This document shows, in pieces, positions 318 through 22,458 of a stretch of DNA of 32,481 nt. The notes beneath the pieces are model-generated. The model was given only the letters and a program-made list of their open reading frames with translations, was not told the DNA's origin and did no database searches. Position 1 is the stretch's first letter; every line of letters starts with the position of its first letter. The DNA comes from Alphaproteobacteria bacterium (GTDB lineage Bacteria > Pseudomonadota > Alphaproteobacteria > Rhizobiales > Aestuariivirgaceae): contig JAGWTZ010000037.1 of assembly GCA_028868695.1 (NCBI GenBank), positions 1 through 32,481 of the forward strand, read 5' to 3'. Made by a program: the position numbers and the translations under genes.

Positions 318-1685
318 TCAGTAGGCGCCGCGGCCGGAGACAACCGCGCGCACGGTGAGCATGATCATCAGCACATCGGTTAGCAGGGTGCGCGTCTTGG
401 CATAGGCGAGGTCCATGTTCACCATGCGGTCAAAGCTGATTTCGGCACGGCCGGAAACCTGCCAGGGGCCGGTGAGGCCCGGCTTCACCGCCAGGCGCGC
501 CAGCGCCTTTTGCGGATAGGCGGCCACTTCCTGTGGCAGCGCCGGGCGCGGGCCAACGATGGCCATCTCGCCCTTGAGCACATTGATGATCTGCGGCAGC
601 TCATCCAGCGAGAAGCGGCGCAGGATGCGGCCCATGCGGGTCACGCGCGGGTCATTCTTGCTCTTGAAGCACACGCCCTTGCGCTCGGAGAGATGCAGGA
701 GTGCGGCGCGGCGGGCTTCCGCGTCCTTGTACATGGAGCGGAACTTGTAAACCTTGAACAGCTCGCCATCCTTGCCCACGCGCTGCTGCGTGAAGAACAC
801 CGGGCCGGAGGATTCAAGCCTGATCGCCGCGGCGATGAGCGCAAACAGCGGCGACAGCGCCAGCAGGGCGCCGCCCGACATGGCAATGTCCAGCGCGCGG
901 CGGCTGATGCGGCCGCTGTCCAGCGCCATCTGGGAGGCAAGCCTTTCGCGCGCGGCGCGCAGGATGAAGGCCGGGTTGCCGAGAACATAGCGGCGGAACA
1001 TGCGGCGCGGCTCAATGGCGAAGCGCCAGGTCCATTCCAGCCCCAGCTTGCGCAGCAGGCCGGGGGCGCGAGACACGCGGCCGGACCAGAAATCAAACTG
1101 CGCACCCACGCCAAACACCAGTTCGGCATTCAGGCGGTGGCGGTTGCGGGCGATCCACAAATCCTGCTTCGGCACGCCCAGCGCCACCAGCACGATGCTG
1201 GCGCCGGAGGCATTGATGCGCTCGATGATGCCGTCTTCCTCGGCCGGCGTGAAAAAGCCATGGCGGGTGCCTGTCACCTTGAGGCCGGGGGCCAGGCCCT
1301 CGGCGGTCTTGGCGGCCTTCTGGGCAATGCCCGGCTGGCTGCCGAAGAAAAACACGCCAAGCCCGCGGGCGGCAGCCTCTTTCATCAGCGGTGGGAACAG
1401 GTCGGTGCCGTTCAGGTTTTCAACGAACTTGGCGCCATTCATCTTGGCGGCGAGCTGCATGCCCGAACCGTCCGGCAGGATGGCCGAAGCACGCTGCAAG
1501 GCCCAGCGGTAGGCCGGGTCCTGGGCCGCCACATTCATGCAATGGGCATTGGCGAAGGCGATGGTTTTCTTGCCCTTTTCGAACAGCCAGTCAAAAACCC
1601 GGTGGCGGGTTTCGTTGACGATGTTGAAATCGAACAGCGGCAGGGTGGCGAGGCTTTGCATCGGAAGGGTGGCGGCGTTTTGCAT
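318..1685 (-). CDS. WecG/TagA/CpsF-type glycosyltransferase fused to an initiating sugar phosphotransferase
   Basis: This 455-aa protein joins two enzymes. Residues about 20-235 are a GT26 (WecG/TagA/CpsF) glycosyltransferase, with PDGSGM (D72), LGVPKQDLWI, GVGAQFDFWSG and a GLEWTWR...EP...RY tail. Residues about 258-455 are a bacterial sugar transferase (small monotopic phosphoglycosyltransferase). They begin with a reentrant hydrophobic segment (RALDIAMSGGALLALSPL) and carry KFRSM, the catalytic Asp-Glu pair of SLDELPQ (D361/E362), VGPRP and PGLTGPWQVSGR. The PGT half would load the first sugar phosphate on undecaprenyl phosphate and the GT26 half would add the next sugar, at the cytoplasmic membrane face. 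I chose the ATG at 1685 because GGAG lies nine nt before it; an upstream ATG at 1712 has no such site. The two halves are normally separate genes. A copy of the CTATCCTTT element lies 112 nt upstream, in the same orientation. Confidence 0.9.
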   Translation of the reverse strand: MQNAATLPMQSLATLPLFDFNIVNETRHRVFDWLFEKGKKTIAFANAHCMNVAAQDPAYRWALQRASAILPDGSGMQLAAKMNGAKFVENLNGTDLFPPLMKEAAARGLGVFFFGSQPGIAQKAAKTAEGLAPGLKVTGTRHGFFTPAEEDGIIERINASGASIVLVALGVPKQDLWIARNRHRLNAELVFGVGAQFDFWSGRVSRAPGLLRKLGLEWTWRFAIEPRRMFRRYVLGNPAFILRAARERLASQMALDSGRISRRALDIAMSGGALLALSPLFALIAAAIRLESSGPVFFTQQRVGKDGELFKVYKFRSMYKDAEARRAALLHLSERKGVCFKSKNDPRVTRMGRILRRFSLDELPQIINVLKGEMAIVGPRPALPQEVAAYPQKALARLAVKPGLTGPWQVSGRAEISFDRMVNMDLAYAKTRTLLTDVLMIMLTVRAVVSGRGAY

Positions 1686-1797: not shown

Positions 1798-1815
1798 CCT
1801 GTCCAAAAGGATAGG
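1798..1815 (-). promoter_or_regulatory. EPS-locus element, copy 1 (upstream of the WecG/PGT fusion)
   Basis: Read on the minus strand the sequence is CCTATCCTTTTGGACAGG. It shares the CTATCCTTT core with the elements at 2558, 8622 and 13791 and has CCTAT/ACAGG half-sites 8 bp apart. It points toward the start codon at 1685, 112 nt away. A perfect 10-bp palindrome, AGGCGCGCCT (1791-1800), adjoins it on the gene side; copy 3 has the same GCGCGCC at the same offset. Confidence 0.6.
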
Positions 1816-1868
1816 AGGCCTGTCCCTTCGCGCAGTGTGCTAGATGAATGGGGCGTTGCCGGGAATCA

Positions 1869-1912
1869 TTCAATTTGTAATTGAACAACACACTTGATTA
1901 ATCTCCAATTGG
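1869..1912. promoter_or_regulatory. AT-rich palindrome cluster upstream of the response regulator
   Basis: Three dyads sit in a 44-bp AT-rich island in otherwise GC-rich DNA. They are TTCAAT-N5-ATTGAA (1869-1885), GATTAATC (1896-1903) and CCAATTGG (1905-1912). The island ends 29 nt before the response-regulator start at 1942 and lies between two divergent genes, so it probably contains that gene's promoter and operator sites. No canonical -35/-10 pair is convincing. Confidence 0.45.
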
Positions 1913-1941
1913 TAAGCTGACCGCATCGAAAAGGCTTGGGC

Positions 1942-2556
1942 ATGAAAGTTCTACTCGCAGACGATCACGATCTGGTGCGCGACACGCTGGCGGCATATTT
2001 GATGCGCGAGCCGGGCATCGAGGTGGCCACGGTTTCGGATTTTCCGGCCGTGACCAAGCGCATCAAGGCGGAAGGCCAGTTTGACCTTGTGCTCTTGGAT
2101 TACAACATGCCGGGCATGAACGGGCTTCAAGGCCTGTCCAGGGCGCTGGAGGCGACGGGCGGCCGCCCGGTGGCCATCATCTCGGGCACTGCCAACCGCT
2201 CCGTGGCCGAAGAGGCGCTGGCGGCCGGCGCCATGGGCTTCCTGCCCAAGAGCATGGCCGCCAAGACGCTGATCCACGCCATCCGCTTCATGGCGGCAGG
2301 CGAAAAATATGCGCCTGTCGAATTCATGAACGCTAAGGACGAGGGCGCCGAGAACCCGCTCGCCTCACAGCTCACCAAGCGTGAGCTGGAAGTTCTGCGC
2401 GGCCTGATGAAGGGCCAGTCCAACAAGGAAATCGCCCGGGATGTTGAGCTGCAGGAAGTGACGGTGAAGCTGCACGTCAAAACCCTGTGCCGCAAGATCA
2501 ATGCCCGCAACCGCACTCATGCCGCGATGATCGCCAAGGAAGCCGGCCTCGAATAG
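1942..2556 (+). CDS. NarL/FixJ-family response regulator (REC + LuxR-type HTH)
   Basis: This is a 204-aa two-component transcription factor. The REC domain (about 1-120) has the acidic pair D7/D8, the phospho-acceptor D53 in LLDYNMPG, the switch residues around SGT (81-83) and K103 in FLPKS. The LuxR-type HTH (about 140-200) begins LTKRELEVLRGLMKGQSNKEIA and includes EVTVKLHVKTLCRKI. The ATG at 1942 has AAGG eight nt upstream; a TTG six nt earlier is a less likely start. It has no adjacent histidine kinase. The hybrid kinase at 14410, which ends in an HPt domain, is the nearest possible phosphodonor, which makes this a candidate regulator of the surrounding EPS genes (inference). Confidence 0.9.
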   Translation: MKVLLADDHDLVRDTLAAYLMREPGIEVATVSDFPAVTKRIKAEGQFDLVLLDYNMPGMNGLQGLSRALEATGGRPVAIISGTANRSVAEEALAAGAMGFLPKSMAAKTLIHAIRFMAAGEKYAPVEFMNAKDEGAENPLASQLTKRELEVLRGLMKGQSNKEIARDVELQEVTVKLHVKTLCRKINARNRTHAAMIAKEAGLE

Positions 2557-2557
2557 G

Positions 2558-2575
2558 CCTATCCTTTGGTATGGC
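2558..2575 (+). promoter_or_regulatory. EPS-locus element, copy 2 (upstream of the chain-length gene)
   Basis: The sequence CCTATCCTTTGGTATGGC starts just after the stop codon of the response-regulator gene and 76 nt before the chain-length gene at 2652, in the same orientation as that gene. Its 5' end also forms the perfect palindrome ATAGGCCTAT (2553-2562), which includes the upstream stop codon. Confidence 0.6.
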
Positions 2576-2651
2576 TGGTTGCGCCGAAAGACCTTGAATC
2601 TCTGCGCCCGCGCAAGCGCGGCGTAGGTGCAAGAAGAATAGAAGCAAGGCC

Positions 2652-4196
2652 ATGCAAAACCGCAATTCCATTCACGTTGGCCCGTGGCCAGATTCAAGGC
2701 CCATTCCTCTGGCCCCGCGCCGCGCCGCCAAGCCGCCCATGGCGGCTGCCGCGCTGGAAGGGCGCCGCGCATTTTTCCGTATCAAGCGCCAGCCCTTGCG
2801 GGATCTCTCGCTCGCCCGCCTGCTCAAAGGCGGCCGCCTGTCCGACAGCGGCCGCCTGGGCCGTTATGCGCTGCTGGTGGCCACCGGCGTTGCCTTCACG
2901 TGGCTGCCGGCCATCGCCTACATCAAGTTTGCCAAGCCGCAGTTCAAATCCCATTTCTCGCTGATCCTGCCGGGCGCGGGCATTGCCTCCTCGATCAATC
3001 TTGCTGATATCGGACAGGCTTCCTCAGCCGCCAATTCGGCCTATGCCAGCACCTCGATCAGCCCGACGGTGACCTACAAGAACCTCATCATGTCCGCCAA
3101 TGTGGTGGAGCAGGCCGCCGCCAAGCTGGGCCTTCCGCCCGAGGCCATGCCCGTGCCCACCATCAAGCTGGTGGATGAAACCAGCTTTATCACGGTGGAA
3201 ATGCCCGGCTATTCCGGCGAGGAGGCGCGCGACCGCGCCGCCGCCATCCAGGACGCCTTTTTCACCGAGCTGAACAAGCTGCGCGACGATGAAATCAAGC
3301 GCCGCGAAGGCTCCACCATCGACACGGTGCGTGAATATGAGCAGAAGGTGAATGCCGTGCGCGCCGAGATCAGCGCGCTGCAGGCCAAGAGCGGCCTGAA
3401 CTCGGTTGAACAGTTCAGCACCATGGTTTCCGGCGCTGACACGCTGAAAGCCCATATTGCCGAGACAGAGGCCGCGCTGGCCAAGTCTCAGCAATCCTCG
3501 GGCGCCCTGGCCGCAACGCTGAGCCTCACGCCGGCCCAGGCGGCGCTGGCCATGAAGCTGCATGCCGACCCGCAATTCCAGGCGCTGGCCGACGCCACTT
3601 CCAAGGCCCAGGCAGACTATGCCGAGGCCGGCCAGCAATATGGCGCCAACCACCCCAAGGTGGTTGAGGCCCGCACCCGCTTTGAAGGCGCGCAAGGCCA
3701 GATGATGGCCCGCGCCGCGCGCCTCACCGGCCTCAGCGCCAAGCAGTTGACTGGCAAGCTTGATTTCTCGCCAGCAGGCCAGCGCTCACCCCTGATGTCT
3801 CAGCTGGTGACGCTGGAGACAGACCGTGAGGGCCTGCAAGGCCAGCTCGCCGCCGAACATGCCGATCTCGACAAGCGCAGCGCCCAGATTGCCGGCCTTG
3901 CCGCAACGGCGGCACAGCTTGACAAGCTGAACCGTGATTTCAAGGTGGCGGAAGCGGTGTTCGCCTCGGCGCTGGCCCGCATCAACACCTCGAAGACCGA
4001 CATCTTCGCGTCTTACCCGATGGTGCAGGTGACCGAAGCGCCGGTGAAGCCGCTGCTGCCCTCCTCGCCCAACAAGAAGCTGGCGCTGATTGCCGCCGCC
4101 GCCGCCAGCCTGATGATTTTCTTCGCCGCCGGCCTTGGCTGGATCCGCCGCCCATTGATTGACAAGCTTTTGAAGAAGCAGCACGAAGGGGCATGA
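2652..4196 (+). CDS. Wzz/GumC-like polysaccharide chain-length protein without a kinase domain
   Basis: This 514-aa inner-membrane protein has a basic cytoplasmic N-terminus, a first membrane segment (about 72-92), a large periplasmic part and a second membrane segment (about 477-497) followed by a basic tail. The periplasmic part begins like a Wzz domain (FSLILPGAG, then SPTVTYKNLI) and continues with long Ala/Glu/Lys/Gln-rich coiled-coil stretches (about 200-280 and 370-440). Such proteins are polysaccharide co-polymerases that set chain length and connect to the outer-membrane exporter. There is no Walker A motif and no Tyr-rich tail, so the fused BY-kinase of Wzc-type proteins is missing. 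The ATG at 2652 has a nearby AAGG. The next gene overlaps by 4 nt (ATGA), so the two are probably translationally coupled. Confidence 0.87.
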   Translation: MQNRNSIHVGPWPDSRPIPLAPRRAAKPPMAAAALEGRRAFFRIKRQPLRDLSLARLLKGGRLSDSGRLGRYALLVATGVAFTWLPAIAYIKFAKPQFKSHFSLILPGAGIASSINLADIGQASSAANSAYASTSISPTVTYKNLIMSANVVEQAAAKLGLPPEAMPVPTIKLVDETSFITVEMPGYSGEEARDRAAAIQDAFFTELNKLRDDEIKRREGSTIDTVREYEQKVNAVRAEISALQAKSGLNSVEQFSTMVSGADTLKAHIAETEAALAKSQQSSGALAATLSLTPAQAALAMKLHADPQFQALADATSKAQADYAEAGQQYGANHPKVVEARTRFEGAQGQMMARAARLTGLSAKQLTGKLDFSPAGQRSPLMSQLVTLETDREGLQGQLAAEHADLDKRSAQIAGLAATAAQLDKLNRDFKVAEAVFASALARINTSKTDIFASYPMVQVTEAPVKPLLPSSPNKKLALIAAAAASLMIFFAAGLGWIRRPLIDKLLKKQHEGA

Positions 4197-5455
4197 CGCA
4201 ACGCACGTTGCCTGAAAACATCTGCTTCTGGGCCTTTGTTCTCACCTGGCCCTTCTATGCCATTGGCGCGCTGTTCCTTGTGGGCCCCATTCTTGCCTGG
4301 AGCCTGCTCGCGCTTGCCGGCTTTGCGGCCTATTTCGGCGAGGCGGTGCGTGATGACTTGCGCATCGCCGGGCCTCTGCCGCCGCTGGTTCTGGGCTGGA
4401 TCATTGGCATGCTCGCCATGCTTGTCGTGCTGTGGGTTGGCCACATGAACTGGGATCTGGGCCTTGGCCAGACGATCAAGTCATCGGTTGGCTGGGCCAA
4501 GGGCTGGGCGATGATCGCCATCTTCATCTGGGTGGGGGCCGTGCTGCAAATCCGCCGCGAGGTTCTGGTGCGCAGCCAGAACATCGTGGGCCTGATCACG
4601 CTGCTGCTGTTCCCGCTGATGTTTGTGGCACCCTATATCGGCCTGCCTTCGCGGCTTTATGTGTCGCCGCTGCAGGCCACCGGCGGGCCGGGGCCGGAAT
4701 ATTTCTCGGTCTATCTCTTCACCATCGACCCCGAAACCATGACGCCGCGCTGGCAATTCTATGCGCCATGGGCGCCCTTCGCCGGCCTCTTGGGCGTGAC
4801 CATGGCCATCTTTGCGCTGGAGGATGAGAAGAAGTTCTGGAAATACAGCGGCCTCTTGGCCGGTGTGCTGATGATCTATTTCTCCAAGTCACGCATGAGC
4901 CTGGTGGGCCTTGCCGCCTGCCTGATCATTCCGCGCCTGATGCCCTACCTCAAATATTCCAAGGCCTGGGTGGTGCTGGCGGGCCTCACCTCGCTGTTCG
5001 CGGTGTTCGGGCAAACGGTGCTGGGGCTGGTGAGTGATGCGGTGGAAGGCTTCCGCGCCGCCCGCATGAGCAGCACGCGAGTACGCGACACCATCCAGAG
5101 CATTGGCTATTACCGCTGGCAGACCGAGGCGCCATGGTTCGGCCACGGCACGGTGGAGCGCGGCCCCCACATCGTTGAATTCATGCCGATCGGCAGCCAC
5201 CACACCTGGTATGCGCTGCTGTTTGTCAAAGGCATCTTCGGCTTTTTCTCCTTCCTCATTCCCATGCTGTGGCATCTCCTCGCCGTGGCACTGGATGCGG
5301 TGCGCAGCCCGCGCGGCCGCCTGCCGCTGGCGCTGCTTCTGAACCTGCTGATCCTCACCTTCGGCGAGAACATCGAGATCGAGGTTTACCTTCTGTGGCC
5401 CGCCTTTGTGGCCCTCGGCATCCACACCCGCGAGATGCTGCGCCACCCGGCCTAA
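4193..5455 (+). CDS. O-antigen ligase / Wzy-type polymerase-like membrane protein
   Basis: This 420-aa polytopic membrane protein has roughly ten hydrophobic segments. Its central and C-terminal part fits the O-antigen ligase/polymerase family (PF04932). It has FSKSRMSLVGLAACLIIPRL, a periplasmic loop with STRVRDTIQSIGYYRW and WFGHG, and then PIGSHHTWYALLFVKGIFGF before further membrane helices. Members polymerise lipid-linked repeat units or ligate finished chains in the periplasm. Beside a chain-length protein, polymerase (Wzy) is the more likely role, but sequence alone does not separate the two. Its start overlaps the chain-length gene's stop by 4 nt (ATGA). It converges on the minus-strand glycosyltransferase gene at 5528. 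Confidence 0.85.
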   Translation: MTQRTLPENICFWAFVLTWPFYAIGALFLVGPILAWSLLALAGFAAYFGEAVRDDLRIAGPLPPLVLGWIIGMLAMLVVLWVGHMNWDLGLGQTIKSSVGWAKGWAMIAIFIWVGAVLQIRREVLVRSQNIVGLITLLLFPLMFVAPYIGLPSRLYVSPLQATGGPGPEYFSVYLFTIDPETMTPRWQFYAPWAPFAGLLGVTMAIFALEDEKKFWKYSGLLAGVLMIYFSKSRMSLVGLAACLIIPRLMPYLKYSKAWVVLAGLTSLFAVFGQTVLGLVSDAVEGFRAARMSSTRVRDTIQSIGYYRWQTEAPWFGHGTVERGPHIVEFMPIGSHHTWYALLFVKGIFGFFSFLIPMLWHLLAVALDAVRSPRGRLPLALLLNLLILTFGENIEIEVYLLWPAFVALGIHTREMLRHPA

Positions 5456-5456
5456 C

Positions 5457-5492
5457 AAAAAGGGCCCCTTCCTCGGGCAAGGAAGGGACCCT
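5457..5492 (-). terminator. Terminator between convergent genes, strongest on the minus strand
   Basis: A 13-bp stem with one mismatch (5461-5473 with 5480-5492) encloses a 6-nt loop, CGGGCA. Read on the minus strand it is followed by five T (5457-5461), a standard intrinsic terminator for the glycosyltransferase operon ending at 5528. The plus strand lacks a T-run, so for the 4193-5455 gene the same hairpin may only protect the 3' end. Confidence 0.8.
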
Positions 5493-5527
5493 GGGCAGGC
5501 CAGTGCCAGTGCTGGGGTAGTCCCGGC

Positions 5528-6538
5528 TCAGGCCGCCATCTGTGCAGGCGCCGTCTGGCGCGTGAGGGAGTGGGTCAAGTCGTTCCAGGCCTTGATGAAG
5601 GCCCATTCTGCGCCGGCCACGCCCGCGGAAAGCCGTAAGCCGGTGGCAACGTCGCGCTGCAGGCCATTGGCAAAGAGCGCCTTCCAGCCATCCACGGTGT
5701 TTTCCGAAATCGCAATTGCGCCGGCCGCCACATGCTGCTTCAGGCCGTCAGCGCCCGAGCAATAGACCGCGCGGCCCGCCGCCATGGCTTCCAGCGCCAC
5801 AAGGCCATAAGGCTCCCAGCGCGAAGGCATGGCCACGGCGTCCACCTCGGCCATGGCCAGGGCGGGGGCGTCGGTGTTGCCCTTGAAGATCACATTGTGA
5901 TGGCCATAGGCCTGGCGCTGCAGCTTGTCCTTCACCGGGCCGTCGCCGATCATCACCAGCTGAATGTCCCTGGGGTTGGCGGCGAGGAAGGCTTCGAGCA
6001 CGATGTCGAAGCCCTTCTGCTCATGGAAGCGGCCCATGCAGGCAAGCTTGAACGGCCCGGTTGGCCGCCGGCCCACCACGGCCATGAATGGCTCAAGGCC
6101 AACGCAGGAGGAAATCGTCACCAGCTGGTCCGGCTGGCAATAGCCGCGCCGGGCGATCCATTCGGCCTGCGGCTCGCTCACCGCCACGACACGGTCAAAC
6201 AGGCAATAGGTGAGGTTGAGGAGATCACTGAACCGGTCCCCCGCCTTCACCTTCAGTGCCGCATAGCGCTGTGAATAGGAGTGTTCGACATGCACCAGCG
6301 GCGTTTCCGGATGCGTGGCGCGCAGCGAGGTGAAGAACGGCAGGTTCTTCCAGCAGGCCGACATGTGCGAGACGATCACATCCGCCTCGATCAGCGGCGC
6401 CTTGCGCAAGCCGCGCTCCACCCGCACGATCTTGTGCTGGTCATGCGTCAGTTCACTGGCGCCCACAAGTGTTTCGAGAAGGCGGTTCACACCGCCCCAG
6501 GATGCGTCATCAACAATATGGACAACAAGATTCTTCAT
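5528..6538 (-). CDS. GT4-family glycosyltransferase
   Basis: This 336-aa GT-B fold enzyme has the acceptor-side N-terminal domain MKNLVVHIVDDASWGGVNRL, the donor-domain start FKLACMGRFHEQKGFDIVLEA and the GT4 EX7E motif in SRWEPYGLVALEAMAAG (E242 and E250). Such retaining transferases add a sugar from a nucleotide donor to the growing lipid-linked repeat unit in the cytoplasm. The specific sugar cannot be read from the sequence. A strong GGGAGG site precedes the ATG at 6538. It is the last gene of a three-gene minus-strand unit, 12 nt after its upstream neighbour, and ends before the hairpin at 5457-5492. Confidence 0.92.
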   Translation of the reverse strand: MKNLVVHIVDDASWGGVNRLLETLVGASELTHDQHKIVRVERGLRKAPLIEADVIVSHMSACWKNLPFFTSLRATHPETPLVHVEHSYSQRYAALKVKAGDRFSDLLNLTYCLFDRVVAVSEPQAEWIARRGYCQPDQLVTISSCVGLEPFMAVVGRRPTGPFKLACMGRFHEQKGFDIVLEAFLAANPRDIQLVMIGDGPVKDKLQRQAYGHHNVIFKGNTDAPALAMAEVDAVAMPSRWEPYGLVALEAMAAGRAVYCSGADGLKQHVAAGAIAISENTVDGWKALFANGLQRDVATGLRLSAGVAGAEWAFIKAWNDLTHSLTRQTAPAQMAA

Positions 6539-6550
6539 TTGGGCCTCCCT

Positions 6551-7534
6551 TTAATTGGCGTGGCTGCTGGTGAGATTGAACAGGTTCTGCGGCTTGGTTG
6601 AGAACACGCGCAGCGCAAGCGCAGCCAGCAGGGTGACGGTGGTTTTGACAGGCTCTTCGGCCAGCGGCTTCGCAGAGGTGCGCAGCGCCTGGGTCATCAG
6701 GGCCAATGCCACTTTGCCGTCGCCCATCATGAAGGCGCGGCGGGCGAGGAAGCGCAGCTGATAGGCCTCGGCCACCGGCGCCACCTTGGCGGCGAAATCC
6801 GGCGCCAGGCCGCGCACCTTGTCGCGCACCCGCTTCCAGGTTTCGTATTGCTTGGTGATGTTGGCGGAAAGCCCGCCGAAATTGATCCGGTAGCGCGTCA
6901 GCAGGCCAGGAATGCCCTCCACCTTCCAGTCGGTGGAGAGGATGAAGCGCAGCCAGGCGTCGATGTCTTCCGATTGGCGCAAGGTTTCATCGAACCACCA
7001 ATCACGCTCTTCCTCGCCAGCCGGGCGGAAGGCAATCGCGTCAAAGGCCGCCTTGCGCACCACCGGGGCAGAACCATTGCCAATCGGGTTGCGCTTGAAC
7101 ACATCGGCCGCCGTAATGCCGGAAAGCTTGGGGCGCTGGGCCACTTTCAGGAACTTGCCCGCCTCGTCAATCATCGAAGAGCCGGCATAGCTGATGCCAA
7201 CATGCGGGTTGCCATCGAGATGGGCGCAGTGCCGCTCCAGCTTTTCAGGCTCCCAGACGTCATCCGAGTCGCAGAAGGCCACATATTCGCCCTTGGCGTG
7301 ATGGAGGCCGGTGTTGCGGGCACCCGCAAGGCCGCGGTTGCGCTGGGTGATCATGCGCAGCTTGGGCGAATTGAATTCCGCCACCACGTCAGCGGTGGCG
7401 TCGGTGGCGCCGTCATTGACGACAATCACTTCGAAATCCTGCAGTGTCTGATTCAGGATTGAGCGCAGCGTCTCGCCGATGGTGGCGGCCACGTTGTAGG
7501 CGGGAACGACGACGGTGACTTTCGGGCTTTGCAT
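6551..7534 (-). CDS. GT2-family glycosyltransferase
   Basis: This 327-aa GT-A fold enzyme begins SPKVTVVVPAYNVAATIGETL and continues with VIVVNDGATDAT (donor binding) and GEYVAFCDSDDVW, whose DSDD (89-92) holds the metal-binding DXD. A later RQSEDIDAWLRF resembles the catalytic ED region of the family. It would transfer a sugar to the EPS repeat unit in the cytoplasm; the donor is unknown. I chose the ATG at 7534, with AAGGAA eight nt upstream, although the frame stays open upstream into the preceding gene. It starts 10 nt after the stop of the 7545 gene. The two GT2 proteins of this unit look related in layout and may be old duplicates. Confidence 0.92.
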   Translation of the reverse strand: MQSPKVTVVVPAYNVAATIGETLRSILNQTLQDFEVIVVNDGATDATADVVAEFNSPKLRMITQRNRGLAGARNTGLHHAKGEYVAFCDSDDVWEPEKLERHCAHLDGNPHVGISYAGSSMIDEAGKFLKVAQRPKLSGITAADVFKRNPIGNGSAPVVRKAAFDAIAFRPAGEEERDWWFDETLRQSEDIDAWLRFILSTDWKVEGIPGLLTRYRINFGGLSANITKQYETWKRVRDKVRGLAPDFAAKVAPVAEAYQLRFLARRAFMMGDGKVALALMTQALRTSAKPLAEEPVKTTVTLLAALALRVFSTKPQNLFNLTSSHAN

Positions 7535-7544
7535 GGGAAATTCC

Positions 7545-8516
7545 TTAGCGGCAAAAAACATGGGAACGGACGGCGCGCGGCAGCAATGGCGCGGCCAGCG
7601 CGCCCAGCATGGTGAAACCGCCGCGGCGCAGCGGGCTGAAAAAGGATTTGGGTGAGCGGCGCGCGCCAGCCACGGCAAGCCGCAAGGCCTCAAGGCCCGG
7701 CGCTCCGGTGCGCAGCGCGCGGCGCGCGAGATAGCGGAGGTTTCCCGCATCTGCCGCAGCAATTTCCATGGGCGACAAGGCGGCAGGCGAGGCCTGAAGC
7801 GTTTCAAGCGCCTTGTGCCAGCCCGCCCGCATCAGCCTGAGATTGGTGGAGAGGCCCGTGAGGCTGGTGCGGTAGCACACGAGGTGCTGGTCAATGCCGG
7901 CAATCTTGCCGCCAGCCGCCGCAAGGCGCACCAGCAGCTCAACATCTTCATTGTGCACGATGCTGGTGTCAAAGCCGCCAGCCTGAACAAAGGCAGCGCG
8001 GCGCAGCACCAGGTTCGACATGGTGCAGACCGGATTGTCGCGCAGGAAATCCGCCGCCACGAGGTCGCGGGTGTAAACCGTGGAATAGGTCTCCGGTGTT
8101 TCGGGCGAAACGCGGAAGAAGGAAATCTGGCCATATACGCCGCTCAGGCTTGCATCCTGGCGCAAGCGCAGCAGGCTGGCCGAAAGCTTGGCAGGCATCC
8201 ACACATCATCACTGTCGAGGAAGGCGAGGAATTCACCCTTGGCATGGCTGAGGCCGGCAAGATTGCGCGCTGCCGAGGGCCCAAGCCGTTTGGTGGCCAG
8301 CATGGTGAAGCGTGGATCAGCTTCCGCAAAGCGCGCGGCAATGGCGGGCGTGTCATCGCTGGAGCCGTCATCGACAAGGATCGCTTCCCAATCCTGGCAG
8401 GTTTGCGCCTGAAGGGACTTCAGCGTATCCGCCAGCGTGCCGGCAGCATTCCAGCAGGGAATGATCACGCTGAATTGCGGTGTCTTGCTGCGGGCCTGTT
8501 GTTTCTGGGTGCTCAT
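7545..8516 (-). CDS. GT2-family glycosyltransferase
   Basis: This 323-aa protein has the GT2 hallmarks FSVIIPCWNAAGTLADTL, ILVDDGSSDDTP, GEFLAFLDSDDVW (metal-binding DSDD at 101-104) and VHNEDVELLVRL (catalytic ED region). It is the first gene of the three-glycosyltransferase minus-strand unit (7545-8516, 6551-7534, 5528-6538), probably assembling the EPS repeat. The start is uncertain: the ATG at 8516 fits family N-termini but lacks a clear ribosome-binding site, and an ATG at 8555 would add 13 residues. The EPS element at 8622-8639 lies 105 nt upstream in the same orientation. Confidence 0.9.
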   Translation of the reverse strand: MSTQKQQARSKTPQFSVIIPCWNAAGTLADTLKSLQAQTCQDWEAILVDDGSSDDTPAIAARFAEADPRFTMLATKRLGPSAARNLAGLSHAKGEFLAFLDSDDVWMPAKLSASLLRLRQDASLSGVYGQISFFRVSPETPETYSTVYTRDLVAADFLRDNPVCTMSNLVLRRAAFVQAGGFDTSIVHNEDVELLVRLAAAGGKIAGIDQHLVCYRTSLTGLSTNLRLMRAGWHKALETLQASPAALSPMEIAAADAGNLRYLARRALRTGAPGLEALRLAVAGARRSPKSFFSPLRRGGFTMLGALAAPLLPRAVRSHVFCR

Positions 8517-8621
8517 GATTGCGGTTTGCGTTGTGTGTTGCGATGAAGCCACCATAGCCACACCCATTGCCGCAATCGCTGGCACGCCGGAACAGCCCAT
8601 GCCTGATTTGGGATGGGCGCG

Positions 8622-8639
8622 CATAACCGAAAGGATAGC
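8622..8639 (-). promoter_or_regulatory. EPS-locus element, copy 3 (upstream of the GT operon)
   Basis: Read on the minus strand the sequence is GCTATCCTTTCGGTTATG, followed by GCGCGCC at the same offset as in copy 1. It points toward the glycosyltransferase start codon at 8516, 105 nt away. The right half-site is the weakest of the five (TTATG instead of AYAGG). Confidence 0.55.
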
Positions 8640-8730
8640 GCTGCTCAGGAAGTTTGCCGGGCGGCGCGGGTTGCGACGCAGCGCGGAGGCGCAAACGCTC
8701 CGCAAAGGTGAATCGAAATTCACCACGCCA

Positions 8731-8748
8731 GCTATACTTTCGCACAGG
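8731..8748 (+). promoter_or_regulatory. EPS-locus element, copy 5 (variant, upstream of the Wza-like gene)
   Basis: The sequence GCTATACTTTCGCACAGG differs from the CTATCCTTT core at one base and then matches copy 4 closely, including the following AT. It lies 95 nt before the ATG at 8844 and has the same orientation as that gene. I found it by aligning the region with the four exact core copies. Confidence 0.5.
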
Positions 8749-8843
8749 ATTTTGCTCGCAGTAGAGCGTCCTCCTCCCCTTGCACAGATGCCCGGCCTTG
8801 TGGCGCGCAGGCATATTGCCCGGCAGAAATAAGGGGTAGTCAA

Positions 8844-10076
8844 ATGAAGTCTGTTCTCAACACCAAGTTCCGCCGCAAGGCGAATGGCGCGATCTGCGCC
8901 GCATTGATTCCGGCCTTGCTGGCCGGCTGTTCCAGCCACTCGCCCATCACCAATCTTGAGCCGGTGGCCGAAGGCCGCAGCTATCAGGCCGAATACCGCG
9001 CCCAGGGCAGCGCCAAGGATGTGCGGATCACGCCAACCTCGGCCAGCGCCGATGAAAGCCGGTGCCTTTCGCAGGCCCCGGCCACTTCGGCACCCGTGCC
9101 ATTCCTCGCCACGGAAATGCTGAACACCGGCGACCTTCTCGATGTGGCCATCGGCACGGATGTGACACTCTCGGGCAAATATGAAGTCTCCTCCGACGGC
9201 GCGGTGAAAATCCGCGATGTCGCGCCGGTGATGGCCTTTGGCCGCAGCGTTGATGACGTGGCGCGCGATATCGCCAAGGCATTGGTGAAGAGCAAGTTTT
9301 ACAATGTGGCCCCGGCCATCTCGGTGCGCCTGGCGGATTATGGTGCGGCCCGCGTGTTCGTGAGCGGCGCCGTGTTTGAGGCCGGTGACGTTGGCGTGGG
9401 CGGTTCTGCCGCCACCGACAAGGACACGGCGCGCGTTGACGCCATTGGCGCAAACACGCAAGGCCGCAGGCTGTCGCACGCCCTGCAAAATGCCGGCGGC
9501 GTGCGCCCTGATGCCGATCTCTCGCGCATTGAAGTGACGCGCGGCGCCCGCAAGATGGTGATCGACGCCCGCGCCGCGATCACCGGCGGCCGCTTCAATG
9601 ACATGATCCTGCTGGAGGGCGACCAGATCAATGTGCCCAGCCGCAATTGCTTCCAATCAGCCCTTGTCACGCCGTCTGTGGTTTCCCCGCCCGGCGCCAA
9701 GGTGTTCATGTCCAACCTCACCGAGCCTGCCACCAACAACGCCAGCTCCGCCATCAACAAGGACACGCGCGAGCTGCGTTATGGCACCCGCATGTTCCAG
9801 GCGCTGGTGGGCATGAATTGCGTGGGCGGCAGCAAGATGACCAATGCCGGCCGCACCGCCATTCTCTATTCGCGCAACCCTGAAAGTGGCAAATCCATCG
9901 TCATCGAGCGCAACATTGAAGAGCTGGTGCGCAACGCCAACCGCGATGACTATGATCCCTTCATCCTGCCGAATGATGCGCTGGCCTGCTATGACAGCGG
10001 CGCCACAGATGTGGTGAAGGTTGCCCAAAGCTTCGGCATTGTTGCCGGCGCCGTGGTCCTTGGCCGGGGGCTCTGA
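8844..10076 (+). CDS. Wza-like outer-membrane polysaccharide export lipoprotein
   Basis: This 410-aa protein has a lipoprotein signal peptide: basic start, hydrophobic stretch and lipobox LLAGC with the lipidated C29. Residues about 90-170 match the polysaccharide export domain (PF02563), with LNTGDLLDVAIG, SDGAVKIRDV and VRLADYGAARVFVSGAV. A SLBB-like segment follows (about 200-275, ALQNAGGVRPDADLSRIEV). Proteins of this kind form the outer-membrane channel through which EPS leaves the cell, together with the Wzz-like protein at 2652. AAGGGG lies nine nt before the ATG. Its stop is 1 nt before the flippase start at 10078, so it opens a three-gene unit with 10078 and 12576. The C-terminal 130 residues are not a family part I recognise. 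Confidence 0.87.
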   Translation: MKSVLNTKFRRKANGAICAALIPALLAGCSSHSPITNLEPVAEGRSYQAEYRAQGSAKDVRITPTSASADESRCLSQAPATSAPVPFLATEMLNTGDLLDVAIGTDVTLSGKYEVSSDGAVKIRDVAPVMAFGRSVDDVARDIAKALVKSKFYNVAPAISVRLADYGAARVFVSGAVFEAGDVGVGGSAATDKDTARVDAIGANTQGRRLSHALQNAGGVRPDADLSRIEVTRGARKMVIDARAAITGGRFNDMILLEGDQINVPSRNCFQSALVTPSVVSPPGAKVFMSNLTEPATNNASSAINKDTRELRYGTRMFQALVGMNCVGGSKMTNAGRTAILYSRNPESGKSIVIERNIEELVRNANRDDYDPFILPNDALACYDSGATDVVKVAQSFGIVAGAVVLGRGL

Positions 10077-10077
10077 C

Positions 10078-12579
10078 ATGCCCGCCGCCACCGCCCTTTC
10101 CTTGCCCGGCAGCAGGTTTCTTGTGAACCTGCTGCGCAAGCACCAATCCAACACCTTCTTGCGCAACCTGGGTTCCATGGGCGCTGCCCAGCTGGTGATC
10201 CGCCTGGTGCGGCTGGCCTCCACCGTGTTCATCAGCCGGCTGCTTTTGCCAGCTGATTATGGCATGGCGGCCATTGCCTTGACGGTTTACGAGCTTGTCT
10301 CGCTCTTCACCCGCAACGGCATTTCCGCCCAGGTGGTGCAGGCCGCCGATGATGAAGTTGATGCGGTGGCCATGGCGGCTTACCGCATGACCTGGATCAT
10401 CTGCCTCGCCCTGATGGGCCTGCAGATTGCCGCCGCCTGGCCCGTGGCCTGGCTCTATGGCAACGCAGGCCTTGCCGGCCCGATCGCGGCAATGAGTGTC
10501 ATCTATCTCGCGACCCCGGTCAGCAGCATTCAGGCGGCGTTCCAGTCGCGTGAATCGCGCCTTGGCCGCATTGCCATGGCGGGTGCGGCCCAGACCATTG
10601 CCGACAACCTGCTCACCATCGCCTTGGCTTATCTCGGCTATGGCTTGTGGGCGATCATCCTGCCCAAGATTCTTGTGGCCCCGCTGTGGATCTATTTCGT
10701 GCGTTACGGCCATTCCTGGCGCCCGCACAAACTGAAGCCAGGCGAACCGCGCGCCGATTGGCGCAAGCTTTTGCGCTTCAGCCGCAATGTGATGGGCGTC
10801 GAGTTGATGTCCACTCTGCAGGCCAATATCGACAATGTGCTGGTGGGCTATTTCCTTGGCGTGCATGCGCTGGGCCTTTACTTCTTCGCCTTCAACAGCG
10901 GCCTTGGCATTTCGCTTGGGCTGATCTCGGCGGCGGGCGTTGCGGTTTATCCGCACTTCTGCGAGGCGCGTGGCAACCGCAGTGAATTGCTCAACCGCCT
11001 CTCGAAAACCCGCAAGACCCTGGCCAAGACTTTCCTGCCGCTGATCCTGGCGCAGGCCGCGCTGGCACCCATCTATGTGCCGCTGGTGTTCGGCCACCGC
11101 TGGGTGGAGGCCATTCCGGTTCTTTCCGTGATCTGCCTCTCTGCGCTGGTGCGGCCCTTTGCCAATGCCTCCTCGCAGTTTCTCAAGGCCGTCGGCCGCC
11201 CGGAAATTGAATTCCGCTGGCAGAGTGTCAACCTGCTGGTGCTGGTGGCCGCGCTGGCCATCGCCGCGCAATTCAGCATCTTTGCTGTCGCTGTGGCGGT
11301 GTTCCTGGTGCAATCCTTGATGCTGGGCTCCTTTGCACTCATTGCCCCGCAACTGGCTTTGCGCGGCAAGCCCCAGCCTGCTGCCCGCAATGAAGCCCTG
11401 GTGCTTGAGATCGCTTCCGATGATGAGGCGCTTGGCCGCCTGGTCACTGATTGGAACGCCTTGTGGCTGCGCGTGCCCGGCGCCCTCGCTTCGCAAAGCT
11501 TTGGTTATTGTGATGCAGCGCTGAAAGCCGCGCAGGCCCATGGCAAGGGCAAGCTCTTCGTGCTCACGATCCGCGCGGCCGGCAAGCTGGTGGCCTTGTG
11601 GCCTTTGCTCAAGTCCCAACATGGCCTGATCACCCGGCTGTCGGCCCTCAACTCCGGCGGCACGGAATATGACGCGCTGCTGATCGACCCGGCGGCTGAC
11701 GCGGCCGCCATTGTGGCCCTCATGCATCAGGCTGTGGCCGAACAGGTGAAGGCCGATGTGCTGCATCTGCCCTTTGTCGTGGAAGGCAGCGCGCAGGACG
11801 CGCACGCCCAGGCCGGCGGCTGGATGGCAACCAGCGCAACCCTGGCTGCACCGCTGGTGGGCCTGCGTGGCTTTGCCTCTTTTGAAGACTATTGGAAGTC
11901 CCTGTCCTCCAACTTGCGCAACGGCACCAAGCGCCGCCGCCGCCGCCTGGATGAACTGGGCCCAGTTGAGATGAAGTTTGAAACCGAGGCAGGCCCGCGC
12001 CGCGAGGCCATTCTCTGGGCCCTGCAGCAGAAGGCCGATTGGCTGGCCCGCAAGAAGATGGGCAATGACTTCATCACCACGCCGCGCTTCCGCGAATTCC
12101 TGCTGGCCTATGCGCTGCAGGCTGGCCAGCACGCAGGCCTCTCGGTGCTAACGCTGCGGCTCAAGGGCGAAATCATCGCCTGCAAGGTGGGCACCTTCGA
12201 CCAAACCTGCTTTGAAGGCTTCATCACGGTTTACGACCCGGCCTATGAAAACTATTCGCCCGGCGTGCACCTGCTCCAGATGAATCTCGAATGGTGTGCC
12301 GCCACAGGCCGTGACTATGACTTCCGCATTGGCGATGAGGCTTACAAGGCCAGCTGGGCAACCGGTTCGTGCCAGCGCACCACCTATGTGCAGGCCCTCA
12401 CCCTCAAGGGCGTGGCCTTCCTGCTGGTCTCTCCCGCAGTGGCCTTCACACAGCGCTTTGCGCTGCGCGGCTGGAAATTCGCCCGCTTGCTGGCCACCCA
12501 GCCCCACGTCGCGGCGCGGCGTCTCACAGGCTTGCGCCCCGCCGCCCCGAAACTGCCCATCGCAGGAGAAATGGCATGA
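10078..12579 (+). CDS. Wzx-like flippase fused to a CelD/BcsL-type GNAT acyltransferase
   Basis: This 833-aa protein has two parts. Residues about 1-425 are a polytopic oligosaccharide flippase of the MATE-like Wzx/MOP group (FLRNLGSMGAAQLVIRLVRL, ISRLLLPADYGMAAIA and repeated membrane helices), which moves lipid-linked repeat units across the inner membrane. Residues about 435-790 are a soluble domain like CelD/BcsL GNAT proteins (PF13480): SLSSNLRNGTKRRRRRLDELG, LRLKGEIIACKVG, YDPAYENYSPGVHLLQMNLEW, then YDFRIGDEAYKASW. Such domains are proposed to transfer acyl groups to polysaccharides or related acceptors. The fusion suggests that acylation of the unit is coupled to export. The ATG at 10078 follows GGGGG and sits 1 nt after the upstream stop. 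The next gene overlaps by 4 nt. Confidence 0.85.
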   Translation: MPAATALSLPGSRFLVNLLRKHQSNTFLRNLGSMGAAQLVIRLVRLASTVFISRLLLPADYGMAAIALTVYELVSLFTRNGISAQVVQAADDEVDAVAMAAYRMTWIICLALMGLQIAAAWPVAWLYGNAGLAGPIAAMSVIYLATPVSSIQAAFQSRESRLGRIAMAGAAQTIADNLLTIALAYLGYGLWAIILPKILVAPLWIYFVRYGHSWRPHKLKPGEPRADWRKLLRFSRNVMGVELMSTLQANIDNVLVGYFLGVHALGLYFFAFNSGLGISLGLISAAGVAVYPHFCEARGNRSELLNRLSKTRKTLAKTFLPLILAQAALAPIYVPLVFGHRWVEAIPVLSVICLSALVRPFANASSQFLKAVGRPEIEFRWQSVNLLVLVAALAIAAQFSIFAVAVAVFLVQSLMLGSFALIAPQLALRGKPQPAARNEALVLEIASDDEALGRLVTDWNALWLRVPGALASQSFGYCDAALKAAQAHGKGKLFVLTIRAAGKLVALWPLLKSQHGLITRLSALNSGGTEYDALLIDPAADAAAIVALMHQAVAEQVKADVLHLPFVVEGSAQDAHAQAGGWMATSATLAAPLVGLRGFASFEDYWKSLSSNLRNGTKRRRRRLDELGPVEMKFETEAGPRREAILWALQQKADWLARKKMGNDFITTPRFREFLLAYALQAGQHAGLSVLTLRLKGEIIACKVGTFDQTCFEGFITVYDPAYENYSPGVHLLQMNLEWCAATGRDYDFRIGDEAYKASWATGSCQRTTYVQALTLKGVAFLLVSPAVAFTQRFALRGWKFARLLATQPHVAARRLTGLRPAAPKLPIAGEMA

Positions 12580-13766
12580 CACTTTCTGTTCTCTTTGTTG
12601 CCCTTGAAGATGGCCGCTGGGGCCCCGCACGCCTGCCGCAGGAATTTGCCCGCCTGGGTGCTGATGTGGCCGCGCTGTGCCCGGCCGGCAATCCCATCCT
12701 GGCGTCCTCTCATGTGGGCCGGAAATTCGTCATCGCCAACCCAAAGTCAGCACGCAGTTTTGCGCAAGGATTGCGCAAAGCCATGGATGAGGCAGGCCCC
12801 AGCCTTATTGTTCCCGGTGATGAGCAGGCCGTGGTGGCACTGCACTATCAGTTGCGCCGTGGCCGCTTGCCCGCCCGGCATCTTGAAGTGCTCGGCGCCT
12901 CGCTGGGCCGGGCCGACCGGCTGGATACGCTGTTGATGAAGGACCAGTGCCTCGCTCTCGCTGCGGCTATCGGCATTCCCGTGCCGCCCAGCATTACGGT
13001 GGCCGATCAGGCTTCGCTGGCCGTGGCTGGGGAAAAGCTCGGCTTCCCCCTGTTTGTGAAATCGTCTTTCAGTTGGGCCGGGCTTGGCACCATTCCTTGC
13101 AAGGACCAGGGTGAAGCGGCCCAGGCGTTCCGGGACCTTTCCCCCCGCCAGGCGCGCAGCCCGCTGAAGGCGCTGGCCAAGAAGCTGCTGGCCAGGGATT
13201 GGTATCCGAAATCATCCGCCATTCAGCTGCAAAGGCCTGTGGCCGGTGTGCCCGCCATGTTCTGCGCCGTGGCCTGGAAGGGCCGTTATCTCGGCGGCTT
13301 TGCCGGCCTTGCCACGCAGACTTCCGGCGCCACCGGGCCCAGCACGCGCGTGCTGGTTGGCCCCAACGCCATCTTCGAAAGGCATTCCGCCGCGCTGATC
13401 GAGGCCACCGGCGCCTCCGGTTTCCTCGGCTTTGATTTCATGTGGGATGAAGAAACCCAGACGGCAACCTTGCTGGAATGCAACCCGCGGCCCATCCAGA
13501 TCTGCCATCTTGGCGACAGGATCGGCGCTGACTTGTGCGCCCTTCTGGCTGATGCCTTGGCTGGAAAGCCCGGCCAGCCGCACGCGCCCCGCCAATCCCG
13601 TGACGTGACCCTGTTCCCCCAGGCCTGGTTTGCCGGGCAGGCGGGCGGCCTCATCAAGGCCGGAAAACTCGACGCGCCGGTTGGGGACACGGGCCTGTGG
13701 CAATTCATGCTCGAGGCGGGGGCGCACCGTGGCCTGCCACCCCTGAAATTCGAGGTTCTGCGCTAA
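12576..13766 (+). CDS. ATP-grasp domain enzyme of the EPS locus
   Basis: This 396-aa protein has an ATP-grasp fold. It shows an N-terminal domain (1-110), a lid region with GFPLFVKSSFSWAGLGT (K162 is the likely ATP-binding lysine) and the metal-binding end FLGFDFMWDEETQTATLLECNPRP (E301, N303). ATP-grasp enzymes usually join a carboxylate to an amine or thiol through an acyl phosphate, so it may add an amino acid or similar substituent to an EPS sugar or make a precursor of one. The substrate cannot be inferred. The ATG at 12576 overlaps the flippase stop (ATGA) and follows AGGAGA, so both proteins are probably made in step. Confidence 0.82.
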   Translation: MTLSVLFVALEDGRWGPARLPQEFARLGADVAALCPAGNPILASSHVGRKFVIANPKSARSFAQGLRKAMDEAGPSLIVPGDEQAVVALHYQLRRGRLPARHLEVLGASLGRADRLDTLLMKDQCLALAAAIGIPVPPSITVADQASLAVAGEKLGFPLFVKSSFSWAGLGTIPCKDQGEAAQAFRDLSPRQARSPLKALAKKLLARDWYPKSSAIQLQRPVAGVPAMFCAVAWKGRYLGGFAGLATQTSGATGPSTRVLVGPNAIFERHSAALIEATGASGFLGFDFMWDEETQTATLLECNPRPIQICHLGDRIGADLCALLADALAGKPGQPHAPRQSRDVTLFPQAWFAGQAGGLIKAGKLDAPVGDTGLWQFMLEAGAHRGLPPLKFEVLR

Positions 13767-13790
13767 GCCAACGCCAACCGGACAGAGCCA

Positions 13791-13818
13791 CCTATCCTTT
13801 CGTATAGGATCATATACG
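13791..13818 (+). promoter_or_regulatory. EPS-locus element, copy 4, with a second overlapping dyad
   Basis: The sequence CCTATCCTTTCGTATAGG (13791-13808) is the best dyad of the five: CCTAT-N8-ATAGG is perfect. A second perfect inverted repeat, CGTATA-N6-TATACG (13801-13818), overlaps its right half. The element is 79 nt before the start at 13888, in the same orientation, and thus upstream of the SUOX-fold protein/hybrid kinase unit. Confidence 0.62.
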
Positions 13819-13887
13819 GCTGCCATGATGCCAGCGGCCCAGTGCTGCTGTAACTCAGGCAGAATTGTTAGAAATGGGGGATTGAAG

Positions 13888-14400
13888 ATGTTGAACTCTG
13901 TTATGAAACTTGCCGCGGGCCTGGCCATCGCGGCTGCCACCGTCACTGCCGCCTTCGCGGCTGACTTGGCGGCGCCAAAGGGCGATGTGGTGTTGAGCCT
14001 CACAGGCGCCATCACCCAGACCAACGCCAAGGCCACCGCCAACTTCGACATGGACATGCTGAAGGCCATGCCGGCCGTCACCTTCAAGACCGCCACCAAC
14101 TGGACCAAGGGCGAAACCACCTTCACTGGCGTTTCCCTCAAGGCACTGTTGGCTGCCGTGGGCGCCAAGGGCAAGAACCTCCATTCCATCGCCCTCAATG
14201 ACTATGCCGTGGACATTCCAGTTGCCGACGCCGTGGATGGCGGCCCGATTGTCGCCTATCTGATGGATGGCAAGCCCATGTCTCCGCGTGACAAGGGCCC
14301 GCTCTGGGTTGTTTACCCTTTTGACTCCAATGCCGCTTATAAGACCGAGGAAGTCTACTCGCGCGCCATCTGGCAGCTGAGCAGGATCGACGTCCAATAA
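13888..14400 (+). CDS. Secreted SUOX-fold (molybdopterin-binding-like) protein lacking cysteine
   Basis: This 170-aa protein has a Sec signal peptide (cleavage likely after AFA at 22-24). The mature part matches the short periplasmic proteins annotated as molybdopterin-dependent oxidoreductases (PF00174): FTGVSLKALLAAVGAKG, ALNDYAVDIPV, RDKGPLWVVYPFD and the tail RAIWQLSRIDV. The whole protein contains no cysteine, so the Mo-ligating Cys of sulfite-oxidase-type enzymes cannot be present. A binding or sensing role fits better than catalysis (inference). The ATG at 13888 follows GGGGG. It ends 9 nt before the hybrid kinase gene, which has a periplasmic sensor region, so the two proteins may work together. 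Confidence 0.82.
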   Translation: MLNSVMKLAAGLAIAAATVTAAFAADLAAPKGDVVLSLTGAITQTNAKATANFDMDMLKAMPAVTFKTATNWTKGETTFTGVSLKALLAAVGAKGKNLHSIALNDYAVDIPVADAVDGGPIVAYLMDGKPMSPRDKGPLWVVYPFDSNAAYKTEEVYSRAIWQLSRIDVQ

Positions 14401-22296: not shown

Positions 22297-22318
22297 GTGG
22301 CTTTCTTGCGTTTGGACA

Positions 22319-22347
22319 GATTACGCGGCCGCAGGCCCGGCGGATCA
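22319..22347 (-). promoter_or_regulatory. SigmaE (ECF11)-type promoter for the FAD/DUF1365/DUF2177 operon
   Basis: On the minus strand, TGATCC (22347-22342) is followed by exactly 18 nt and then TAATC (22323-22319). This fits the TGATCC-N18-TA pattern described for R. sphaeroides RpoE promoters. Its -35 box is one arm of the inverted repeat GGATCA-CCGA-TGATCC (22342-22357), shared with the divergent promoter. Confidence 0.75.
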
Positions 22348-22351
22348 CCGA

Positions 22352-22380
22352 TGATCCAAATGCCACCGCCCCGCGTATTC
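22352..22380 (+). promoter_or_regulatory. SigmaE (ECF11)-type promoter for rpoE-chrR-SDR
   Basis: TGATCC (22352-22357) is followed by exactly 18 nt and then TATTC (22376-22380). It has the same architecture as the divergent promoter four nt away and would make rpoE autoregulated. Transcription would begin near 22386, giving a leader of roughly 70 nt to the start at 22459. The start placement at 22393 would leave almost no leader. Confidence 0.75.
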
Positions 22381-22458
22381 CCTTCGCAAGCCATGAAAAA
22401 CCAGCCTACCATAGTGTCTGACAGCAACCGGCGGGGCCCAGCCCACGCAAGGAACATG

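Follow-up and report, generated by a model that had tools for sequence, protein, structure and literature searches.

An 18-bp palindrome before exopolysaccharide and PruR-type sensor genes as the candidate operator of a linked NarL-type response regulator

Five similar 18-bp elements are found between the genes of an alphaproteobacterial exopolysaccharide locus, in the part 1798-13818 of the window (here and below, the window is the whole stretch of DNA that was analysed, 32,481 nucleotides). The locus raises the question whether these elements are regulatory sites and, if so, which protein would act on them, in which direction and in answer to which signal. The original prediction had placed the exopolysaccharide and sensor operons under the response regulator (RR) encoded at 1942-2556. 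Our results support this regulon, while binding by the RR is something that we infer; the genes most often linked to the RR are those of a PruR-type protein and a hybrid kinase. We are confident that this is a genuine, conserved element with the pattern of a regulatory site. The element, its palindromic form and its conservation before the same gene classes can be read directly from the sequences, as can the families of the PruR-type protein, the kinase and the RR. On the same grounds we find it quite probable that a PruR/hybrid-kinase/RR phosphorelay operates here, in which the RR would bind the element as its operator and activate the sensor and exopolysaccharide operons.

The element and its neighbouring genes

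The four exact copies of the core CTATCCTTT that had been described were found at 1806-1814 (minus strand), 2559-2567 (plus), 8630-8638 (minus) and 13792-13800 (plus), and the fifth copy, with one mismatch to the core, at 8732-8740 (plus). None of the five full elements overlaps a called gene, and only 6.9% of the window is intergenic. The stated distance of 76-112 nt to the next gene start agrees with the measured values (112, 76, 105, 95 and 79 nt), which were taken to the called gene starts and, for wzc, to the upstream ATG (2652). With up to one mismatch allowed, the core has nine matches in the window against 2.09 expected, a number reached in none of 100 shuffles. Genome-wide (3.09 Mb) there are eight exact cores, where composition predicts 8.2; four of the eight fall within this 12-kb span (p = 1.6e-8, for a span picked post hoc), and exact-core sites are also present on contigs C38, C58, C60 and C63. 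The half-sites had been proposed to be CCTAT-N8-AYAGG. The repeat architecture was borne out, but its exact form had to be corrected to the 18-bp palindrome CCTATCC-N4-GGATAGG, from which the five copies differ at 1, 3, 3, 4 and 1 of 14 positions (the 4 was read from the sequence).

The best-scoring copy (matrix described below) is site 5 (13791-13808, plus strand, CCTATCCTTTCGTATAGG; score 24.1, rank 1), 79 bp before the PruR-type gene. Site 1 (1798-1815, minus strand, on which it reads CCTATCCTTTTGGACAGG; score 20.6, rank 2) lies 112 bp before the start of a WecG/TagA-type glycosyltransferase fused to a polyprenyl sugar-1-phosphate transferase (318-1685, minus strand; family matches, start from gene calling) and 126 bp before the divergent start of the RR. 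Site 2 (2558-2575, plus strand; score 16.2, rank 3) begins one base after the RR stop codon and stands 76 bp before a Wzc-like chain-length determinant (2652-4196, plus strand). This protein has no Pfam match; its assignment draws on weak chain-length NCBIfam matches below the cut-off and on the upstream sites of its counterparts in relatives. It is followed by a ligase-like membrane protein (4193-5455, plus strand), a label kept from the original prediction, for which no family match was found. Site 3 (8622-8639, minus strand; score 15.6, rank 4) precedes by 105 bp a three-gene glycosyltransferase operon (5528-8516, minus strand; family matches and gene calling). Site 4 (8731-8748, plus strand; score 10.5, rank 5), the most degenerate with 4 of 14 mismatches, stands 95 bp before the gene of a Wza-type export protein (8844-10076, plus strand; family match), after which come a flippase fused to a GNAT-type acetyltransferase (10078-12579, plus strand; family matches and gene calling) and a weak ATP-grasp-like match (12576-13766, plus strand). 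We note that the window has two fusions, i.e. the WecG-type glycosyltransferase with its sugar-1-phosphate transferase (318-1685) and the flippase with its acetyltransferase (10078-12579).

According to its domain matches (REC and GerE), the protein encoded at 1942-2556 (plus strand), the proposed binder of the sites, is a NarL/FixJ-type RR. It matched 89 NCBIfam models, and the 25 shown all stay below their cut-offs. Conservation is strong in the recognition-helix region when 82 sequences of at least 55% identity are compared.

The palindrome in related genomes

Relatives of the RR were collected by a scan of genome contigs. The best 80 of 416 were kept (58-67% identical); by title these are mostly Rhodobacteraceae, plus genera such as Notoacmeibacter, Oricola and Acuticoccus. 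Around the 80 RR relatives the element takes the form CCTATCC-N4-GGATAGG, i.e. a 7-4-7 geometry. The spacing is sharply defined: CTAT-N8-ATAG occurs 53 times in the 80 loci, and each of 13 other spacings 0-7 times. The dependence on the seed of the original prediction was removed by a search in which every 4-mer/gap/4-mer was counted in the stretches of up to 200 bp that precede the PruR-type genes of 58 relatives; the top dyad was again CTAT-N8-ATAG, in 21 of the 58 upstream regions, against a maximum of 6 in 20 shuffled sets.

A symmetric matrix was then built from the 80 related loci alone, leaving out the window, using sites with at most one mismatch to CTATC-N6-GATAG. The five best positions in the window are the five sites (24.1, 20.6, 16.2, 15.6 and 10.5), and the next best scores 7.4 and lies inside the kinase gene. 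The same five sites come first with a matrix limited to PruR sites and with one limited to non-PruR sites. Elsewhere in the same genome, a position at C91:16465 scores 12.4 and is found in a 101-bp gap before an acyltransferase-family gene, and one at C74:375 scores 8.1.

Two checks had been named with the original prediction, namely whether the motif avoids the inside of genes and whether it is conserved before orthologous genes, and both came out in its favour. Genes were called by a codon-usage script, and 91 of 100 sites scoring at least 16 in loci L014-L117 (seven of which, L100-L106, were fetched for their sites) are intergenic although 87.5% of the related-locus DNA was called coding. 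In other families, too, the sites stand upstream of orthologous genes. We counted sites of at least 15 within 250 bp upstream of genes in 81 loci (the window and L020-L099), dropping genes within 120 bp of an upstream contig end. Sites precede 36 of 59 PruR-type genes, 10/11 wza, 10/13 wzc and 10/12 flippase genes, 7/14 genes of UDP-glucose/GDP-mannose dehydrogenases, 4/6 pyruvyl transferase and 4/11 HlyD-like genes, and fewer of the WecG-PGT (3/13), GalU-like (1/13) and ManC-like (1/11) genes. The controls were 0/69 for kinase genes and 12/872 for all other genes. A cross-check with the non-PruR matrix, the window being left out, gave 35/58 PruR genes against 27/899 others and 0/68 kinases. 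The distance from site to PruR start is 71-86 bp in 28 of 41 cases. On the other hand, 21 of the 59 PruR genes score below 13 upstream, several of them being devoid of any trace of a site.

The RR gene itself had been thought to have no site, which is not secure: site 1 lies in its divergent gap, 126 bp before its start, and 14 of the 81 RR genes have a site within 250 bp upstream. The RR gene may thus share the site at 1798. Downstream of the RR, 19 of 80 related loci have a site 6-28 nt after the last matched base (threshold 13), much as site 2 in the window.

Could the element be a chance similarity or a local repeat without regulatory meaning? The counts by themselves would allow it: composition accounts for the number of cores in the genome, and there is no surplus of palindromes. 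With up to two mismatches the palindrome was found 7 times in the window genome and its reversed control 7 times, and there was no excess in congeners either; with up to three mismatches the numbers were 59 and 82. A mild excess (137 against 96, up to two mismatches) was seen when the counts were summed over 12 RR-positive genomes, those of 12 of the 80 relatives. It is the conservation across families, positions and gene classes that makes chance hardly credible to us. A genome scan for upstream enrichment had been proposed along with the original prediction: the enrichment is present in related loci, but over whole genomes the motif does not stand out by its number. Since there is no clear genome-wide excess over the reversed control, it is position and not count that carries the signal.

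In 20 RR-positive genomes that were chosen for having sites, 42 palindromes with at most one mismatch were found against 8 for the reversed control; the RR locus accounts for 29 of the 42 and for 12 of the 15 that are perfect. Across 289 genomes of the class, in each of which at most 10 RR candidates were scored, a palindrome with at most one mismatch is present in 8 of the 11 with an RR hit and in 49 of the 278 without; this survey is weak evidence since 6 of the 8 that have both carry the palindrome somewhere other than at the RR locus.

The co-occurrence of site and RR can also be followed closer to home. PruR genes are present in 16 of 61 genomes searched, with 19 PruR loci of the window's order. 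Where the genome has an RR orthologue, 4 of 5 PruR loci carry a site of at least 15 (both loci of the window genome, that of G051 and one of the two in G053, the second PruR of which has no site, best 8.4); where it has none, 1 of 14 does (L136, 17.0; Fisher 0.006). Among four genomes with a Wza match, sites precede wza in the window genome and in the congener G036, whereas no site was found within 400 bp upstream of wza in the two lacking the RR, G003 and G054 (best -3.7 and -2.3). G036 is the only one of 36 congeners with an RR at 1e-30; its RR is 78% and its Wza 64% identical to those of the window. Two degenerate sites (15.8 and 13.7) precede its wza, but no PruR was found at 1e-12 and no good site near the RR (best 8.6). 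Near this wza (L122:654-3435) there are separate Hpt and REC-Hpt proteins, the Hpt gene being preceded by a site of 17.2. The arrangement suggests that G036 has a rearranged relay. At larger distance, 7 of 8 RR loci (L110-L117, 45-54% identical) are without a site of 15.

The sensor pair and the proposed phosphorelay

The gene preceded by the strongest site (13888-14400, plus strand) had been labelled SUOX. It is a homologue of the PruR-type periplasmic pterin-binding proteins, with pterin binding itself being a prediction. The protein matches the PruR structures 7kos (E = 1.2e-35) and 7kp2 (6.6e-26), which come from Agrobacterium and Vibrio cholerae, respectively (PMC13259868). It is 170 aa long, and its N-terminus, MLNSVMKLAAGLAIAAATVTAAFA, was read by eye as a signal peptide. 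Tyr106 is present in 66 of 66 family members and Trp162 in 65 (one gap); there is no conserved Cys, and no window column has a Cys in more than 10. According to a review of these systems, PruR proteins have a Trp in place of the Moco-ligating Cys and a conserved Tyr of the pterin pocket (PMC13259868), a description that the window protein fits.

The kinase gene (14410-17001, plus strand) follows directly, after a gap of 9 bp. By domain matches the product is a hybrid histidine kinase (PAS-HisKA-HATPase-REC-Hpt), probably of the DTB type, i.e. DcpA-TorS-BaeS. Its best NCBIfam model is TorS (2.5e-107, 360 bits, below the model's cut-off of 676.5). It has the WX7E motif, as W60-X7-E, and the region between its hydrophobic stretches is about 150 aa by eye, where the DTB class has about 190 periplasmic residues. 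WX7E is found in the first 140 aa in 43 of 75 clustered kinases of at least 600 aa, against 49 of 631 other proteins. The order of genes and domains (a PruR-type gene, then a kinase with WX7E region, PAS, HisKA, HATPase and REC) resembles that of the published PruR-DTB class, into which the window kinase appears to fit; the review also has an example from the Rhodobacterales, Ruegeria pomeroyi (PMC13259868). The term "response regulator" is absent from the main text of that review. In the window system an RR linked to the sensor pair, an operator and candidate target genes come in addition. The PruR-DcpA system of Agrobacterium tumefaciens has a homologous periplasmic PruR and an output in surface polysaccharide and attachment; DcpA, however, acts via c-di-GMP (PMC13259868). 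In the window, PruR is paired with a phosphorelay kinase, and a DNA-binding RR is linked to it.

The sensor genes are more often linked to the RR than the exopolysaccharide genes are. Of the 80 RR loci, 59 have a PruR match close to the RR, 70 have a kinase match there and 3-14 the exopolysaccharide genes of the window, so that the sensor-kinase-RR trio is the most conserved unit. Sixty of the 70 kinase matches score at least 250 bits; some of the 10 below may be other kinases, and others are cut by the locus end.

From these data the following mechanism can be proposed. The hybrid kinase (14410-17001) would receive the signal of a ligand, probably a pterin, from the periplasmic PruR-type protein (13888-14400). 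Within the kinase, phosphate would pass from His to Asp to Hpt, and from there to the RR. That the kinase feeds the RR of the window is likewise a prediction. The RR (1942-2556, NarL-type) would dimerise on the palindrome, the five 18-bp inverted repeats being its operators, and would activate its own sensor operon together with the operons of exopolysaccharide assembly and export. As to the signal, we give the pterin an even chance. Relays from HisKA-REC-Hpt proteins to a GerE-type RR are known from BvgAS, EvgAS, BarA-UvrY and RcsCDB, and exopolysaccharide is under RcsB-type control; compared to these, the window system would differ in its periplasmic PruR partner and its operator.

Candidate binding proteins and the direction of control

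The promoters of 40 relatives' PruR genes were aligned on the palindrome (positions 1-18). Conserved columns continue beyond it, namely T23 (31/40), A24 (26/40), T25 (25/40) and C27 (40/40), followed by T39 (26/40), G40 (28/40), T58 (25/40), G59 (26/40) and A62 (29/40). The window promoter retains TATAC at 23-27, ATG at 38-40 and TA at 61-62. Columns 23-27 would represent a third half-site (TATAC, 13813-13817, plus strand) about two helix turns from the first, and the later columns a candidate -35 (ATGCCA, 13828-13833) and -10 (TAACTC, 13851-13856) of the pruR promoter (13828-13856, plus strand). In our reading, the palindrome is where an activator would bind, with its centre about 63 bp ahead of the putative start, and a -35 and an extended -10 follow. 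An upstream placing of this kind is the position of class I activators.

With the site centre near -63 from the predicted start, the RR is likely to activate through its sites. The opposite, i.e. that the RR represses through them, has something to commend it, since PruR-DcpA signalling keeps polysaccharide production in check in Agrobacterium (PMC13259868) and the distances from site to start vary between target genes. In the PruR promoters, however, the palindrome lies upstream of the predicted -35, and we regard repression as unlikely.

The neighbouring RR probably binds the element. Sequence similarity alone does not identify the binder, and one competitor is an autoinducer-responsive LuxR-type regulator (from a quorum sensing system or a LuxR solo), to which the RR locus would merely be one target. 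The palindrome resembles lux boxes, and the 7-4-7 palindromic geometry is typical of LuxR-type sites. The tra and lux boxes of TraR and RpaR are inverted repeats of 18-20 bp recognised by GerE domains, as is proposed for the window element, and the RpaR half-site, which we take to be CCTGTCC-like, resembles that of the window. Each of the 30 genomes scanned has at least one Autoind_bind match. For the window genome (99.67% complete), the Autoind_bind scan gave no GerE protein with an autoinducer-binding domain, which sets it apart from the TraR and RpaR systems; the only match is a 179-aa protein (contig C77, L163:1478-2017) that has neither GerE nor any other DNA-binding domain. We note that the frame with an Autoind_bind match in G036 is about as long (181 aa).

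The distant class member G318 speaks for this competitor; as a blind test, it had been selected only for its palindromes. Two near-perfect palindromes lie 7 kb apart in one 20-kb stretch (L155:5783-5800 and 13025-13042), and one of them stands between the gene of an autoinducer-type LuxR protein (Autoind_bind-GerE) and a YfiR/HmsC-like gene, preceding the latter. No PruR/RR locus was found in the stretches fetched from G318, nor any RR hit at 1e-45 among the candidates scored, of which there were at most 10 per genome. It is for this reason that the sequence by itself cannot name the binder; likeness to lux boxes and the case of G318 mean that similar DNA may serve other GerE proteins. In Rhodopseudomonas, moreover, quorum sensing raises exopolysaccharide and lux-box-like repeats precede rpaI (PMC10305029), but in Ruegeria sp. 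KLH11 the sequence needed for activation of ssaI by SsaR is reported not to be an inverted repeat (PMC3907830). As the sites track the RR/PruR locus (the 29 of 42 near-perfect sites in genomes chosen for sites), we consider a LuxR-type binder improbable.

Another regulator of the same genome might bind instead, for example the RR of a second PruR system (RR2, G000:C45) or another GerE protein, and the two PruR systems would then share targets. The second PruR-kinase-RR operon lies on contig C45 (L006:2798-5663), with a strong site (L006:5865-5882; 21.8) about 200 bp upstream, and a first look gave 37 candidates for RR relatives in this genome. RR2, however, is just 27% identical to the RR of the window, and in relatives the sites are found around relatives of the latter, which leaves this reading slightly less probable still than that of a LuxR-type protein. 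With the window RR as the preferred binder, the second operon may be controlled by the first system.

A wider generalisation is that PruR-DTB systems have a direct transcriptional output: the periplasmic pterin sensor would drive a phosphorelay to an RR that binds CCTATCC-N4-GGATAGG, and in the Rhodobacterales and relatives this RR would control the export of exopolysaccharide together with large adhesins and alginate-like genes, by-passing c-di-GMP. We think that this might equally well be right or wrong. It would give the PruR-DTB kinases, for which the review names no RR in its main text (PMC13259868), a concrete target sequence and gene list, and it hints at how marine members of the Alphaproteobacteria might let an extracellular, probably redox-active signal govern the building of a polysaccharide coat or biofilm. 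A literature search on titles and the openings of abstracts returned no report of this operator or RR.

Away from the RR locus, sites precede a gene fragment of a BapA-like adhesin (L100), an AlgF gene (L105) and a sugar transferase gene (L144). Others make no sense as members of the regulon and were set aside: those inside genes (L104, L145, L153, L154), one between convergent genes (L103), and those before the genes of an acetyltransferase (L147), a DUF1868 protein (L150), a protein without family (L151) and a transthyretin-like protein (L152). In three genomes (L101, L146, L149) the palindrome adjoins the gene of a zinc-dependent dehydrogenase, and in two of these (L146 and L149) the gene divergent from it encodes a small HTH_3 regulator. 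The window itself also holds, at 22285-23660, a gene pair for an ECF sigma factor and a ChrR-type cupin anti-sigma factor, which is apparently ordinary.
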